This document shows positions 6,310 to 57,801 of a stretch of DNA of 64,000 nt, piece after piece. Source of the stretch: Desulfovibrio oxyclinae DSM 11498 (lineage in GTDB: Bacteria > Desulfobacterota > Desulfovibrionia > Desulfovibrionales > Desulfovibrionaceae); the NCBI RefSeq assembly GCF_000375485.1, contig NZ_AQXE01000005.1, forward strand, positions 124,001-188,000, given 5' to 3'. Position numbers and translations under genes: made by a program. The notes below the pieces were generated by a model. That model did not search any database. It worked only from the letters and a program-made list of their open reading frames with translations, and had not been told where the DNA came from. Within the stretch, counting starts at the first letter, position 1. Each line of letters opens with the position of its first letter.

Positions 6310-7088
6310 TGAGCGGTTACGGCTTTAAAAAGCATAGCCTGCTCAAGGACAAGATCCTGCCGGGGCTGGTGATGGCCCTTGCGCTCGGGGTCATCCTCGG
6401 TGGCTCGTGGCTGGTCAAGTCGCTGCCCAAGGGGCAGAAGACGGCGGCGGCAAAGCTCGCTCTGCCGCGAAAGCACACAGTCGTGCTCATCGACCAGACC
6501 GACACCCTGAGCGCTCACTGTGCAACCCAACTGGAATTGTACCTTAAGGATTTGCCGGAATCCATGGAGCCGGGCGAAATGGTAAGCCTGTTTGCCGTGG
6601 ACGCCAACTCCGACATCACGGTTTCGCCGCTTCTGAGCGAGGTGAATCCCGGAAGCAACGTCAATGAATGGCTGGAGAACTACGAACTGAAGCGCCAACT
6701 GTTCGACAAGGAGTTCGTTAAACCGATCACGGCGATAGCGGGCGAGGTCAAATCCCGGCCGGACAGCGAGACTTCGCCCATAATCGAAACCATCAACCGC
6801 ATCGCCACGTGGCACAAGTTCAGCGACAAAGTGTCGGTGCGGCGCATGGTCATCTATTCCGACATGCTCCAGAACTCGCGGCACTGTTCGGACTACACCC
6901 ATTCCAAGGCGGTGCACCCGGCGTCGCTCGGTTGTCCGGACCTTGAACCGCTCTGGGGGGTGGATGTGGACCTGCGCTACATTCTGCGCCGTGGCAAGAG
7001 CCACTTGCAGACGGACGCGCACAGGAAAAACTGGATACGCAGACTGCGCAGCGCCGGGGCAAAGGTGAAGCTTACACCCATATTGTGA
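6309..7088 (+). CDS. Membrane-anchored VWA-like protein
   Basis: A 259-residue protein with one N-terminal membrane anchor (about residues 17-36) and a C-terminal domain resembling a von Willebrand factor A fold. Strand beta-1 and a MIDAS-like DxTxT motif read HTVVLIDQTDT (D62, T64, T66); a later strand, RRMVIYSDMLQNS, ends in an Asp (D185) placed like the last MIDAS acid. VWA domains bind a partner through a divalent metal. The similarity is by motif only and could be wrong. It is translationally coupled to the upstream coiled-coil membrane protein. The domain would be periplasmic if the charged N-terminus (KKHSLLKDK) stays inside. Confidence 0.7.
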   Translation: MSGYGFKKHSLLKDKILPGLVMALALGVILGGSWLVKSLPKGQKTAAAKLALPRKHTVVLIDQTDTLSAHCATQLELYLKDLPESMEPGEMVSLFAVDANSDITVSPLLSEVNPGSNVNEWLENYELKRQLFDKEFVKPITAIAGEVKSRPDSETSPIIETINRIATWHKFSDKVSVRRMVIYSDMLQNSRHCSDYTHSKAVHPASLGCPDLEPLWGVDVDLRYILRRGKSHLQTDAHRKNWIRRLRSAGAKVKLTPIL

Positions 7089-7115
7089 GTTCTCGTACCC
7101 GGTTCAATAATTTGT

Positions 7116-7153
7116 CCCCCGTCGGAGCGAATCCGACGGGGGTTTCATTTTTT
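7116..7153 (+). terminator. Terminator of the membrane/VWA-like module
   Basis: The stem CCCCCGTCGG pairs with CCGACGGGGG around a seven-base loop, followed by TTTCATTTTTT. A classic strong intrinsic terminator, 28 bp after the stop codon. Confidence 0.9.
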
Positions 7154-7256
7154 GAACCTGCGGGGCTGACGGCCTGTGGAGGAGGATACTCGCGGCCTCA
7201 CAGTTAACCGTCTGAAATATATTTATAAAATTTTAATATTGGGTTGTGTCGATGTC

Positions 7257-7273
7257 TTGGCACGGCAACTGCT
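7257..7273 (+). promoter_or_regulatory. Sigma-54 promoter element
   Basis: The element reads TTGGCACGGCAACTGCT. The GG (7259-7260) and GC (7271-7272) dinucleotides are exactly ten bases apart, and the left half TTGGCACG matches the sigma-54 consensus perfectly; one base of the right half (C for T) differs. The 50 bp upstream are AT-rich, as is common where IHF or an activator bends DNA. Start of transcription is expected near 7284. No coding gene follows on this strand before a terminator-like hairpin. Confidence 0.72.
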
Positions 7274-7283
7274 AGAAGTCGTA

Positions 7284-7354
7284 TACCTTCACTTCTTTTG
7301 CATATGAGAAAGCACGGCTCTCCCGGGATGGTCCCGGGGGAGCCTTTCTCATTT
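7284..7354 (+). ncRNA. Candidate sigma-54-dependent small RNA
   Basis: Starting 12 bases after the sigma-54 GC, a transcript of about 70 nt would hold a short pyrimidine-rich leader and then a long hairpin. Nine outer pairs (7304-7312 with 7344-7352) and twelve inner pairs (7317-7328 with 7332-7343) close on a three-base loop, with a four-base bulge on the left side. The inner stem followed by TTTCTCATTTCT has the form of an intrinsic terminator. No start codon with a ribosome binding site lies between promoter and hairpin. This is inferred from sequence alone; it might instead be a promoter followed by an attenuator. Confidence 0.5.
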
Positions 7355-7380
7355 CTGGGTGGACCGAGGATTGAAAAAGT

Positions 7381-7590
7381 TTAGCGGCCGGTCAGAAGGC
7401 GGGAGGGGAAGAAGCAGTAGAAATCTTCAGACTTAAGATTGTCCACGCGAAGAGTAAGGCGATGCCAGAAGCGACACAGGGCGCTTTTGCGCAGGCAGAA
7501 ATGTCCTCTGGCGAAGCGTTCTATTTTGAATGGAAGAACGATCATACAAAATGCGATCAGTCCTTCAGTGAATTGCCATTCGAATTCCAT
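7381..7590 (-). CDS. Small hypothetical protein with a strong ribosome binding site
   Basis: A 69-codon frame. What supports it is the initiation region: AAAGGAGGT lies six bases before the ATG, one of the best Shine-Dalgarno matches in the window. The N-terminal part (MEFEWQFTEGLIAFCMIVLP) could be a short membrane segment; the rest is Arg/Phe-rich (CLRKSALCRFWHRL) with no known family. It lies between the sigma-54/hairpin unit and the chemoreceptor upstream region, opposite in direction to both. It could be a real small protein, or a leader whose exact sequence matters little. Confidence 0.45.
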   Translation of the reverse strand: MEFEWQFTEGLIAFCMIVLPFKIERFARGHFCLRKSALCRFWHRLTLRVDNLKSEDFYCFFPSRLLTGR

Positions 7591-8012
7591 GGCGAAACCT
7601 CCTTTGGTTTAGAACTAAAAGGTACGCCTCTTTTCCCCAAGGTCAACGGGGCTGGCTCTAATTCTTTTTTTCACTAACTTTCGCCGAATTTCGGCTCCGT
7701 ACGACGTCGAGAATGGATTGAGCCTTGGCGTTCGGTATTGCTTGCTTTTCCAGCTGTCCTGAAAAAGCGGATGGAAGAAAAGTGACGGTAAACCGCAATG
7801 GAATTGTAACACATCAATACTACTGTGCCGCCACTATCAAGAGGTTCACGAATCGTGGCGGGCGTCCGGCGCTGACGCGGCAAAGATCGTTGCGGGTGCA
7901 CGAAAGGCTTCCACGGTTTCCTCGGCGGGGTTCCGCAAAAGGCGCATTGCCGGATGAACGCCAGCGGAAAACATGCCCTGCAGGTCTTTCCAACCCAGCA
8001 GAAGTAGCGCTC
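7591..8012. other. Upstream region of the chemoreceptor gene, no gene seen
   Basis: About 420 bases. A frame is open in phase with the chemoreceptor from 7725, but it has no ribosome binding site and would put about 96 low-quality residues before a normal receptor N-terminus, so it was not used. I looked for a c-di-GMP riboswitch or a sigma-28 promoter and found neither. The left end carries the likely promoter of the small leftward ORF. Confidence 0.4.
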
Positions 8013-10433
8013 ATGAAAAGCAACATCGGATTTCGCGGAAAACTGTTTGCCGCAAGCATCTCAATTGTCCTGATCACCATCCTGTGCATGGCGGGTGTCA
8101 ACTCCTTCCAGAGCAGGAAGGTGTATCTCGAAAACGGCATCACCGCCCTGAAAAACGTCTCGGATACCCTTGAAGAGACTATCTCCCTTCAGGATCACCT
8201 CTCCAAAACCAAGATTTCGTCCGACCTCAAGATTTTCCGCTCCATCATGGGCGTCAGCGGGCTCCCCATGCTCGAAATGCTCATGGACGTGACCATGAAG
8301 GTTACCAATCAGGATACGGGAAAGCAGGCGGAGATCACGCTGCCTGCCTTCAAGCTCGGGTCAAAATATCTGCACGAGAGTTCCGACCTTGTGGCGCGCA
8401 TGAACACCATGGCGGGCGTGCGGTCCTCCGTGCTCCAACTGCACGACGAGAAGCTCGTGCGCGTCTCCACCACCATCAAGGATGAAAAGGGGGAGTCTCT
8501 ACAGGGCGTCTTCATCCCCAAGAGCAATCCCGCATACAAGGCCGTTTTTTCCGGTGATACCTTTGAAGGCATCGTTACCCTCGGCGGCAAGCCTTTCGTG
8601 GTGGCCTACGAGGCCATTCGCAACTATGATGAAAAGGTCATGGGAGCCATCGAGGTGGCCAGCCCGCTCATTCCCGCCAAACTGGCGGACTTCATCCACA
8701 GCGTCACCGTCAGCGGCAAGGGGCAGTCCTTCGTGCTCGGCGCCGACGGCAGCGAGATCGTTGCTCCGGAGAGCCCGGCGGTCGGCGAGGCCGTGGCCGC
8801 CTACATCGCATCCGGCAAAGCCCCTGCGGACGGCAAGGCAGCAGTGGCCGCCATCGGGCTCGGCGACGACACGCTGCAGTCCCGGCTTGTCCACTTCAAG
8901 CCGTGGGACGCCTACCTTGTCACCGGGGTTCGTACCTCCAGACTGCTGGATGGCGTGAGCGAACAGATCATCATGAACGCGCTTGCCAGCGCCGGAGTCC
9001 CGCTGCTGCTTTCGCTGATCATCATCTGGTTCATGAGCCGCCAGCTCATGCGTCCCATGAACCGGCTGGAAACCATTGCCAATCAGGTTTGCAAAGGGAA
9101 TTTCGACTTCGACTTCAACTACGACGTGGATGACGCCATCGGCCGGACCGTGGCCTCGGTCCGGCACATGGTGGGCGAAATCAAGAATCAGCTCGGCTTC
9201 AGCCGGGGCGTGCTTGAAGGCGTGACCATCCCCTGCGCCGTGGTGAATCTGGACAACGAACTCATTCATTTCAACTCGGCTGCGGCCACTATTCTCGGCA
9301 AGCGCAAGAATGCCGACCAGTATCTCGGCAAGACGCTCAACGAGGTGGTGTTCCACGACTCCAAGGAGAAGACGCTGACCCAGAACGCCATGGAGCAGCG
9401 CAAGCAGATGAACTGGGAGCTGAACCTCACCCGCGATCTGGACGGCAGCACCGTCAACCTGAACGTGGTGGCCACGCCCATTTACGATCTGGACAACGAG
9501 CTCATCGGCGCCATCTCCATATGGGTGGACCTGACCGAGGAACGCACTCAGAAGAAGGCCATCGAGGAAAAGAACCGCATCATCGAGCAGGCCGCGACCG
9601 AAGCCATCGAGGTAGCCCGCAAGGTCTCCGAGGCGACAGAGGGTCTCGCAGTGAAGATCGACTCCGCCAATGAGGGCGCAGACAAGCAGCGTGAACACGC
9701 CGGGCAGGTCTCAAGTTCCATGGAGCAGATGACCGGATCGGTGCAGGAGGTCGCGGACAACGCCAACTCCACCGTTGAGAATTCCGAGCTTGCAAGGGAT
9801 TATGCGCGCGAAGGCGAGCAGATAGTTCGCCGCTCCGTGGGCATGATGCGCGAGGTGCACGAACAGTCAAAGGGCCTGCTGGGCCAGATGGACGAGATGG
9901 GGCGCCATGCCAAGGGCATAGGCGCCATCATGGGCGTGATTACCGACATCGCCGACCAGACCAACCTGCTGGCCCTGAACGCGGCCATCGAGGCGGCTCG
10001 CGCAGGCGAGGCCGGGCGCGGCTTTGCGGTGGTTGCGGACGAGGTGCGCAAGCTCGCGGAGAAGACCATGACCGCCACGGTGGAGGTGGAGGACTATATC
10101 AAGCTCATTCAGGGCAGCGCGCAGGAGAACATCGCCAGCACCCAGAAGGCCACCGATGCGCTGGAGGAATGCCGGGGCATGGTCGAGCAGTCCGGCAGCT
10201 CGCTTCAGGACATCGTCAGCAAGGTCGAGGAAGCCGCTTCGCAGGTGCGAAACATTGCGGGCGCGGCCGAAAGACAGTCTCGGGCCAGCGAGGAGATCAA
10301 CGCCGCCACCGAGACCGTGAACGTTATCGCCGCCGACACCGCCGAGGCCATGCAGGAAGCGTCCGCCGCGCTGGACCAGCTCAATTCACTGGCGGATGAG
10401 CTCAAGGTTGCCATCAACCGTATGCAGGGCTGA
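8013..10433 (+). CDS. Methyl-accepting chemotaxis protein (Cache-HAMP-PAS-MA)
   Basis: An 806-residue transmembrane chemoreceptor. An N-terminal membrane helix (about 10-30) and a second at about 325-345 bracket a periplasmic Cache-type sensor of nearly 300 residues. Then come HAMP (about 346-395), a cytoplasmic PAS domain (about 398-510; [20 protein letters not shown] at its start) and the methyl-accepting signalling domain. The conserved hairpin tip is present near residue 647 ([19 protein letters not shown]). The start [10 protein letters not shown] gives a normal receptor N-terminus, though the ribosome binding site is weak. The ligand is not deducible; Cache domains bind small molecules such as organic acids or amino acids. 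The internal PAS adds a possible cytoplasmic input. Confidence 0.93.
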
Positions 10434-20504: not shown

Positions 20505-20639
20505 TGCCTCCGGCGGGCCCTTCAGGCGGACCAAAGGGGCGGGCCCCCTTTGGAAACCCTATGTTGTCAGCGGGGTTGCAGCTGTTGAGTCCATGCGACC
20601 GCACAACTCGCGTCCCAGCTGCAACCCCGCTGACGGGGA
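20505..20639. repeat. 135-bp repeat, copy A
   Basis: This copy and the one 398 bp further right are identical over 135 bp except for one base (C for G in the first stem's loop). The unit holds two palindromes: a short one (CCAAAGGGG with CCCCTTTGG) and a long one (GTCAGCGGGGTTGCAGCTG with CAGCTGCAACCCCGCTGAC, 19 of 19). No open frame of note. It looks like a non-autonomous, structure-forming repeat (REP/MITE-like) rather than a gene. Confidence 0.93.
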
Positions 20640-20902: not shown

Positions 20903-21037
20903 TGCCTCCGGCGGGCCCTTCAGGCGGACCAAAGGGGCGGGGCCCCTTTGGAAACCCTATGTTGTCAGCGGGGTTGCAGCTGTTGAGTCCATGCGACCGC
21001 ACAACTCGCGTCCCAGCTGCAACCCCGCTGACGGGGA
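20903..21037. repeat. 135-bp repeat, copy B
   Basis: Second copy in the same orientation, one mismatch to copy A. The sequence after it diverges at once (GTTGTGG against TTCAAAA), which sharply defines the right end of the unit; the left end is the shared TGCCTCCGGCGGGCCC. No target-site duplication is obvious. Confidence 0.93.
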
Positions 21038-57117: not shown

Positions 57118-57801
57118 ATGCTCGGCCTCATTGTTTCCACGGAAAAGGAGCTTCGCGCAGCGCTTGGCAAATTCGACGACGCCCCGGGCGTTGCCGAAGG
57201 CGACATGGAAAGCTGGACCTGCAACGGGCGCGAATGGCTCGTGGCCGTCAGCGGCGTGGGCCCCGTGAACGCGGGCATCATGGCGGGCAGGCTGATTGAA
57301 CGCGGCGTGAGCGGCGTGGTCAATGCCGGGCTGGCCGGAAGCTTCGACACCGGGCGGCTGCCCACGCAGTCCGTATGCGCGGTACGCTGCGAAACGTGGC
57401 CGGAATACGGGCTTGCTACCGCTGATGGCGTGGACCCGGAAGGCATCGGCTTTCCGCTGGCCACCGTGAATGGACAGGCCGTCGGCAATCGCATCTGCAT
57501 GGACCCGGTGCGGGCCGCAGGAGACATGGCACTTTCCCTGCCGTGGCTGGAGACCGCGTCGAGCCTGACGGTTTCGGCGGCGACCGGCACTCCCGAAGGG
57601 GCGCAGGGCCTGAAAACGACATTTGACGCGGACCTTGAGAATATGGAAGGTTTTGCCGTGGCGCTGGCCTGCGTGCGGGCCGGGCTGCCGTTTCTCGAAA
57701 TCCGCACCGTATCGAACCGCGTCGGTTCCCGCGAAGGGTGGGACATCGGCGGAGCGTTCACCGCGCTCAAAGTGGCCTGCGGTGCGCTTCTTGCGGCATA
57801 G
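57118..57801 (+). CDS. mqnB: Futalosine hydrolase MqnB
   Basis: A 227-residue nucleosidase of the MTA/SAH-nucleosidase fold that splits futalosine (or aminodeoxyfutalosine) in the menaquinone pathway of many anaerobes. Features: start MLGLIVSTEKELRAAL, AVSGVGPVNAGIMAGRLIE, VVNAGLAGSFDTGRLP and the catalytic region DLENMEGFAVALACVRAG with EIRTVSNRVGSREGW. It lies between the sugar dehydrogenase (6 bp) and the polyprenyl synthase (10 bp); the latter supplies the isoprenoid tail of the same quinone. Confidence 0.93.
   Translation: MLGLIVSTEKELRAALGKFDDAPGVAEGDMESWTCNGREWLVAVSGVGPVNAGIMAGRLIERGVSGVVNAGLAGSFDTGRLPTQSVCAVRCETWPEYGLATADGVDPEGIGFPLATVNGQAVGNRICMDPVRAAGDMALSLPWLETASSLTVSAATGTPEGAQGLKTTFDADLENMEGFAVALACVRAGLPFLEIRTVSNRVGSREGWDIGGAFTALKVACGALLAA

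Follow-up and report, generated by a model that had tools for sequence, protein, structure and literature searches.

A conserved small RNA gene family of Desulfovibrionaceae, putatively controlled by sigma-54, with an outer-membrane porin as its predicted target

Introduction

Porin repressors of the MicA/RybB type in enterobacteria act at porin ribosome-binding sites, are driven by sigma-E and are helped by Hfq, and Hfq is also used by the Qrr RNAs of Vibrio. According to the part of PMC8043402 available to us, the Qrr system comprises several short RNAs that are made with sigma-54 and a single activator, LuxO, through sites upstream of each gene, and that act post-transcriptionally. NcS25 of Burkholderia cenocepacia represses an outer-membrane porin and, in the accessible text of its description, is expressed constitutively and has no sigma-54 motif upstream (PMC10117139).

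A first-pass annotation of the DNA analysed here had knowledge of no description of an RNA of this kind in a sulfate reducer next to a chemoreceptor gene, but sigma-54-controlled RNAs are already in print for D. vulgaris Hildenborough (PMC4641369, PMC3333781; both seen in part). The sigma-54 regulome of this strain, which by the lineages named belongs to the same family as our host, includes four non-coding RNAs (regulators DVU0653, DVU0679, DVU1419 and DVU2359), for which the part of PMC4641369 available to us gives no target; our comparison with them is one of descriptions. The response regulator DVU0679 targets an expressed sRNA described as of unknown function (PMC3333781, in part), and the ncRNA of DVU1419 is listed away from the regulator's own gene and filed with envelope stress (PMC4641369, in part). 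The major porin of D. vulgaris, DVU0799, has been characterised in PMC5686591, whose accessible text contains neither "operon" nor "promoter" and uses "regulat" twice, in neither case for the control of DVU0799. The portion of PMC8319347 available to us portrays DVU0799 as an abundant porin through which sulfate and other solutes pass, and names it as the D. vulgaris gene most strongly selected in evolved co-cultures. The D. piezophilus genome paper mentions none of porin, sigma, sRNA or small RNA, and the open-licence literature on Desulfovibrio, Pseudodesulfovibrio and sulfate-reducing bacteria held, among the matches listed, no sRNA linked to this major porin. Sigma-54 ncRNAs of a Desulfovibrio are already known, while a link of one of them to a porin was found in no paper.

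The locus described here lies in a 64,000-nucleotide stretch of the genome of Desulfovibrio oxyclinae DSM 11498, the whole of which is referred to below as the window. Its likeness to the Qrr genes, proposed in the first-pass annotation, extends to the general plan, with several copies, sigma-54, probably one activator and predicted pairing at a ribosome-binding site, but not to membership. Unlike the Qrr RNAs, the RNA has no Rfam family match at gathering score, its genus is one in which Hfq was not detected, its predicted target is a porin rather than the quorum-sensing regulators targeted by Qrr, and its upstream sites are paired palindromes of another sequence. The predicted role resembles that of NcS25, which differs in its constitutive expression and in having no sigma-54 motif upstream, and the predicted site of action resembles that of the MicA/RybB-type RNAs, which differ in their use of sigma-E and Hfq.

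Results

The first-pass annotation had described a sigma-54 promoter of exact GG-N10-GC spacing that is followed on its own strand by no gene and, downstream of the expected start, by a bulged hairpin of 21 pairs. All three elements were borne out: the promoter TTGGCACGGCAACTGCT is present as described (Table 1), the plus strand is free of genes as far as a chemoreceptor gene with a likely start at 8013, and the hairpin comprises 21 pairs with a 4-nt bulge on its 5' side, folds at -34.7 kcal/mol (z -5.57) and was equalled by none of 200 shuffles; terminator scoring on the plus strand recognises it as well. The RNA is predicted to start about 11 nt beyond TTGGCACGGCAACTGCT, and its 5' end, UACCUUCACUUCUUUUGCA, is about 20 nt long, CU-rich and unpaired in the fold of the locus. 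By itself the promoter lies within chance, as the window contains 59 sites with at most two mismatches to the consensus, three of them with one mismatch, versus a mean of 75 in shuffled sequence. Scanning the window with cmscan at the Rfam gathering score returned tRNA only and no match at the RNA locus, and at E ≤ 1 positions 7050-7420 gave only two noise matches (E 0.75-0.84). Elsewhere in the window, a further one-mismatch sigma-54-like site, TGGCACTTTCCCTGC, lies at 57527-57541, and a pair of promoter-pattern matches at 20565-20617 recurs 398 bp away at 20963-21015, which suggests a direct repeat.

Table 1. Coordinates of the features of the RNA locus within the window
Feature	Position	Strand	Evidence or remark
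Distal activator palindrome GGTTCAATAATTTGTCCC (inferred enhancer site)	7101-7118	.	21.0 bits
Proximal activator palindrome GGTTTCATTTTTTGAACC (inferred enhancer site)	7141-7158	.	15.2 bits; 40 bp from the distal palindrome
Sigma-54 promoter TTGGCACGGCAACTGCT	7257-7273	+	GG-N10-GC spacing; kept in 58/58 relatives examined
Predicted RNA start and unpaired CU-rich 5' end UACCUUCACUUCUUUUGCA	7284-7302	+	Start inferred from the promoter
Terminator hairpin, 8 + 13 pairs, 4-nt bulge	7304-7352	+	Folding, terminator scoring, covariation

A DNA search of 98 genomes returned matches in eight, including the host. Four of the ten non-host matches span the locus from promoter through hairpin and the others cover parts of the RNA. 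The loci behind these matches each contain the promoter and a CU-rich stretch, and all contain the hairpin except L010, which stops at the end of its contig. A covariance model built from four RNA sequences with the promoter left out (R1) matched 36/36 genomes of the same genus and 117/247 genomes of the family at E ≤ 0.01. We refer to the same-genus genomes as Pseudodesulfovibrio-like, the named contigs with like sequence being those of Pseudodesulfovibrio MAGs, Salidesulfovibrio brasiliensis and others. Among 30 loci returned by the R1 search, the promoter was found within the stretch scanned in 29 and on separate reading in the thirtieth. A set of strong matches was then defined with the RNA-only model (58 matches at E ≤ 1e-7 in 56 chosen loci), and a sigma-54-type promoter lies just upstream of every one of them, exactly 23 nt before the model start in 48. 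The promoter pattern applied here matches 0.37% of all 24-nt windows in the fetched loci, and its presence at 58/58 matches found by the RNA alone places the combination of promoter and RNA beyond chance.

The stem covaries. Across 56 distinct sequences, two-sided changes occur in 16 of 19 pairs and 96.0% of pair cells are paired, in an alignment that was fitted to the tested structure and hence favours it; none of 500 shuffles did equally well on any of five measures, and sliding the structure lowered the paired cells to 39-56%. Two MAFFT alignments (A1 and A2) were set aside because their stem columns were out of register, and a further alignment that held antisense matches (A4) was replaced by one restricted to E ≤ 1e-7 (A5). 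Conservation of promoter and stem in close relatives and covariation of the stem had both been proposed as checks in the first-pass annotation, and the joint presence of the two elements in all 58 matches supports its interpretation of the locus as a small RNA gene. From these comparisons, the window locus is very probably a real small-RNA gene common to many related sulfate-reducing bacteria. We are surer that there is a conserved, sigma-54-driven RNA gene here than that the porin is its target.

In the host, the full anatomy is present in the window copy, in one copy on contig C12 and in one on C14, so that its genome carries at least three copies of this Desulfovibrionaceae RNA family. A fourth candidate at position 8398 of L083 (G000:C2:262000-279000, minus strand) consists of a sigma-54 promoter followed by a hairpin of -35.6 kcal/mol; its 5' part is CU-rich, but it lacks the palindromes described below and complementarity to the porin, and it is perhaps another sigma-54 small RNA. 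Full or near-full anatomy, taken as a promoter, at least one palindrome, a CU-rich stretch and a hairpin, was found in eleven genera (g1, g7, g8, g13, g21, g22, g43, g44, g47, g53 and g58). With a second model (R2), matches were obtained in 58 of 247 genomes sampled from the order, every one of them a member of the same family, the share of the 247 that falls outside this family not being given. Six loci (L070, L068, L098, L103, L006 and L008) contain tandem arrays of two or three RNA copies, each with a promoter of its own. When 11 of the family matches were inspected, five (L114, L115, L117, L118 and L119) proved to be plain terminators and the other six had the promoter and palindromes, five of these, from g44 and g47, with TTGGCCC. 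Matches in Pirellulaceae and Desulfobulbaceae (two of eight stretches in named genomes) had no palindromes and were dismissed as chance. Sigma-54 (RpoN, PF04552) is encoded by the host and in 34/36 genus genomes. A search for Hfq (PF17209, E ≤ 0.001) found it in 0/36 same-genus genomes, with a control in which it was found in 5/14 genomes including E. coli.

Upstream of the RNA genes lie 18-bp palindromes with a consensus of about RGTWMAAAWWTTTKWACY, and the proximal one in the window begins at the 3' end of the terminator hairpin of the upstream gene (7116-7142). At 44 RNA promoters, the two best sites were 40 or 52 bp apart in 40 cases, and in 41 the proximal one lay between -114 and -117 relative to TGGCAC, the C2 candidate alone being without both palindromes. 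The weaker palindrome of the pair reached a median of 16.1 bits, versus 5.4 bits for the 99th percentile of letter-shuffled upstream DNA, with a matrix trained on 44 largely overlapping loci, which makes the scores partly circular and the spacing less so. Every one of the 58 strong matches has a palindrome scoring over 9 bits, and 52 of them have two, spaced by 40 bp (34 matches), 52 bp (17) or 41 bp (1); the 164,004 bases around enhancer-protein genes contain only three sites over 9 bits. The host genome has 17 close matches to the sigma-54 promoter (four for the reversed control), and the palindrome pair occurs at three of them, all RNA copies. Because the pair recurs and is confined in the host to the three RNA copies among these 17 promoter matches, we consider the palindromes likely enhancer sites of one shared activator that would act in trans. 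Counts of the palindrome pattern are by themselves no evidence: with one mismatch allowed, the host contains 23 + 19 matches versus 44 + 37 for the reversed control, and in G025 the strict pattern gave eight matches versus 10 for the control. The strict pattern marks 18 distinct sites in five of six genomes, none of them in the host, with 10 sites at an RNA copy or porin and eight elsewhere.

An activator encoded beside the RNA was considered and rejected, as such an arrangement is not constant across the copy-bearing loci: a motif scan placed an enhancer-protein gene within some kilobases of an RNA copy in L056, L073 and L086 and found none near the copy in the remaining copy-bearing loci over 3.5 kb. 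At the enhancer-protein genes themselves, no palindrome exceeded 13 bits in the 15 host and 15 G015 loci L200-L229, and none exceeded 12 bits in L230-L240 of the host. The survey took in 25 of 27 host PF00158 matches and half of the 30 in G015 with flanks of 1.5-2.5 kb, and the activator gene was not found among these loci, although its site may lie further off. DVU1419 may offer a lead to the activator of the RNA family.

In the host, two adjoining palindromes (20.5 and 19.0 bits; L167) also precede the gene for a 451-aa protein, an outer-membrane homotrimeric porin by its match to NF033939 (E 3.2e-148) and in Pfam a weak match to KdgM, below cut-off. Each of 36 porin upstream regions, with start codons picked by the leader motif, contains a palindrome of at least 18.9 bits, located between -118 and -136 relative to the start codon; in 25 of them it is preceded by another at a distance of exactly 17 bp. 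In seven other genera, a palindrome over 11 bits was found in 13/23 porin upstream regions, none of them in g8. A sigma-54 promoter driving the porin was rejected, since the pattern is present in only 1/36 upstream regions and there far upstream; a sigma-70-like promoter, read by eye only, lies just downstream of the porin palindrome.

The porin leader GCAAAUUGCAAAAGAAGGAAGGUAAACAAUG is complementary to the RNA 5' ends at the Shine-Dalgarno region, where the window RNA forms 18 pairs with one bulged A (-31.2 kcal/mol). Among 277 leaders taken from the window, six host regions, and 15 host and 15 G015 loci, which cover part of two genomes only, the porin is the top-ranked partner of the C12, window and C14 RNAs, at -46.3, -31.2 and -28.7 kcal/mol versus -25.3, -21.6 and -24.9 kcal/mol for the respective next-best leaders; the C2 candidate scored -9.9 (230th of 278 as printed). 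The porin was detected in 34/36 genus genomes, and all 29 porin leaders read have GCAAA, soon followed by GGAAG, ahead of the start codon. In each of 27 genomes with both RNA and porin, the longest unbroken pairing falls on the Shine-Dalgarno stretch, with a median of 14 nt and a range of 9-26 nt when G-U pairs are allowed. Contiguous pairing was longer than with any of 60 shuffled leaders in 16 of the 27 genomes and was not in 11, in a comparison that did not include every RNA copy of these genomes. A genome's own leader ranked first among the 27 as a partner of its RNAs in seven genomes, and own-lineage pairing was best in three of seven lineages (g1A, g1B and g58, by single-RNA means). Five genomes with GCAAAAGAAGG leaders carry CCUUCUUUUGC-type RNAs, which pair at -30.4 within their own group and -19.8 with the other group, whereas RNAs of the non-GCAAAAGAAGG group do not discriminate (-23.2 own, -23.9 other). 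The complementarity between RNA and porin is thus kept, with co-adaptation only partly visible, given that the own leader is best in 7/27 genomes and the own lineage in 3/7.

The chemoreceptor ORF downstream of the RNA (window 7725-10433; Cache_3-Cache_2, PAS and MCPsignal domains) had been mentioned in the first-pass annotation as the neighbour of the RNA, but other RNA copies sit in other gene contexts and we therefore regard it as incidental. A frequent context, in which genes were named by reading their protein sequences, places RNA copies between CheA/HPt/CheY-like genes with Sua5 and a group of NUDIX, PdxA and GmhB genes, an arrangement partly shared by the C14 copy of the host. An ORF of 69 aa on the minus strand (window 7381-7590, leader AAAGGAGG), absent from the first-pass annotation, runs towards the hairpin; it has no clear homologue in the fetched loci, the best other match having E 0.17.

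Discussion

Taken together, the conserved promoter, the palindromes of near-fixed spacing, the covarying stem and the complementarity to the porin leader, all read from sequence, point to a circuit in which other elements are inferred: that the RNA is transcribed, that an enhancer-binding protein binds the palindromes, that control takes the form of repression, and what the signal is. A sigma-54 enhancer-binding protein would bind the two 18-bp palindromes and fire the -24/-12 promoter, giving an RNA of about 70 nt that would keep its CU-rich first 20 nt or so single-stranded ahead of the terminator hairpin. This 5' end would pair with the Shine-Dalgarno region of the porin mRNA and block its translation. 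As the porin gene is preceded by this palindrome too, the activator would also sit by the porin promoter and probably adjust porin transcription. With Hfq undetected in 36/36 genus genomes, the pairing may need no Hfq or may use another chaperone. We consider it probable that these are multicopy, trans-acting sigma-54 RNAs that block porin translation. More tentatively, and with a little less than an even chance, they may form a family-wide feed-forward circuit without recognisable Hfq. A single sigma-54 activator would act at a rigid pair of palindromes in front of several additive RNA genes and at the same palindrome by the porin promoter. The outer-membrane pore of sulfate reducers would then be set by one signal in both transcription and translation, and long pairing, which in two genomes reaches 24-26 nt, would replace the help that Hfq gives elsewhere.

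The RNA could be a real sigma-54 small RNA whose main targets are other mRNAs, or a general Shine-Dalgarno mimic, with the porin one target of several. Its CU-rich 5' end does pair with many purine-rich leaders (the next-best in the host at about -25 kcal/mol), pairing with the porin is no better than with shuffles in 11/27 genomes, and the ranking covered 277 leaders rather than whole genomes; yet the porin came first of those 277 for 3/3 palindrome-bearing host copies and carries the same regulator palindrome as the RNA genes, and we hold this reading to be unlikely. The palindromes in turn could bind an ordinary regulator, so that the RNA would answer separately to sigma-54 and to another activator. 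At the porin they lie upstream of what by eye is a sigma-70-like promoter, where a sigma-54 activator would be unexpected, the sigma-54 pattern in 1/36 porin upstream regions is far away, and no palindrome was seen at the enhancer-protein genes read. At the RNA genes, nevertheless, the sites precede the promoter by about 115 and 155-167 bp and keep a near-fixed spacing. Sigma-54 enhancers are arranged in this way, their usual distance from the promoter being similar, and we consider an ordinary regulator a very unlikely explanation.

That there is no RNA gene at all, and that a promoter-like site happens to precede a bidirectional terminator or the terminator of the 69-aa minus-strand ORF, would fit a promoter that alone is within chance for the window and an ORF that heads towards the hairpin. 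It does not fit the joint conservation of promoter, palindromes and covarying stem, by which a bare terminator or chance promoter was ruled out, or an ORF whose best other match in the fetched loci had E 0.17, and we give it almost no credence.

If the preferred reading of a porin-blocking sigma-54 RNA is true, RNA would control what these sulfate-reducing bacteria let in, through a porin of which DVU0799 is a relative. It would supply a target and a logic for the sigma-54-controlled RNAs of sulfate reducers, which the cited papers, in the parts available to us, list without targets, and would exemplify regulation by base pairing in bacteria of a genus that gave no Hfq match.

Palindromes also occur at places other than those considered above. 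Two of them, L281:1501 in G024 (22.8 bits) and L292:1501 in G015 (17.7 bits), adjoin no RNA copy or porin and may belong to the regulon as well. Many porins have a third palindrome near -300 (for example L245:1089); it lies inside the start of a divergent gene that is uvrC-like as read from its sequence, and may be a looping site or a coding effect.
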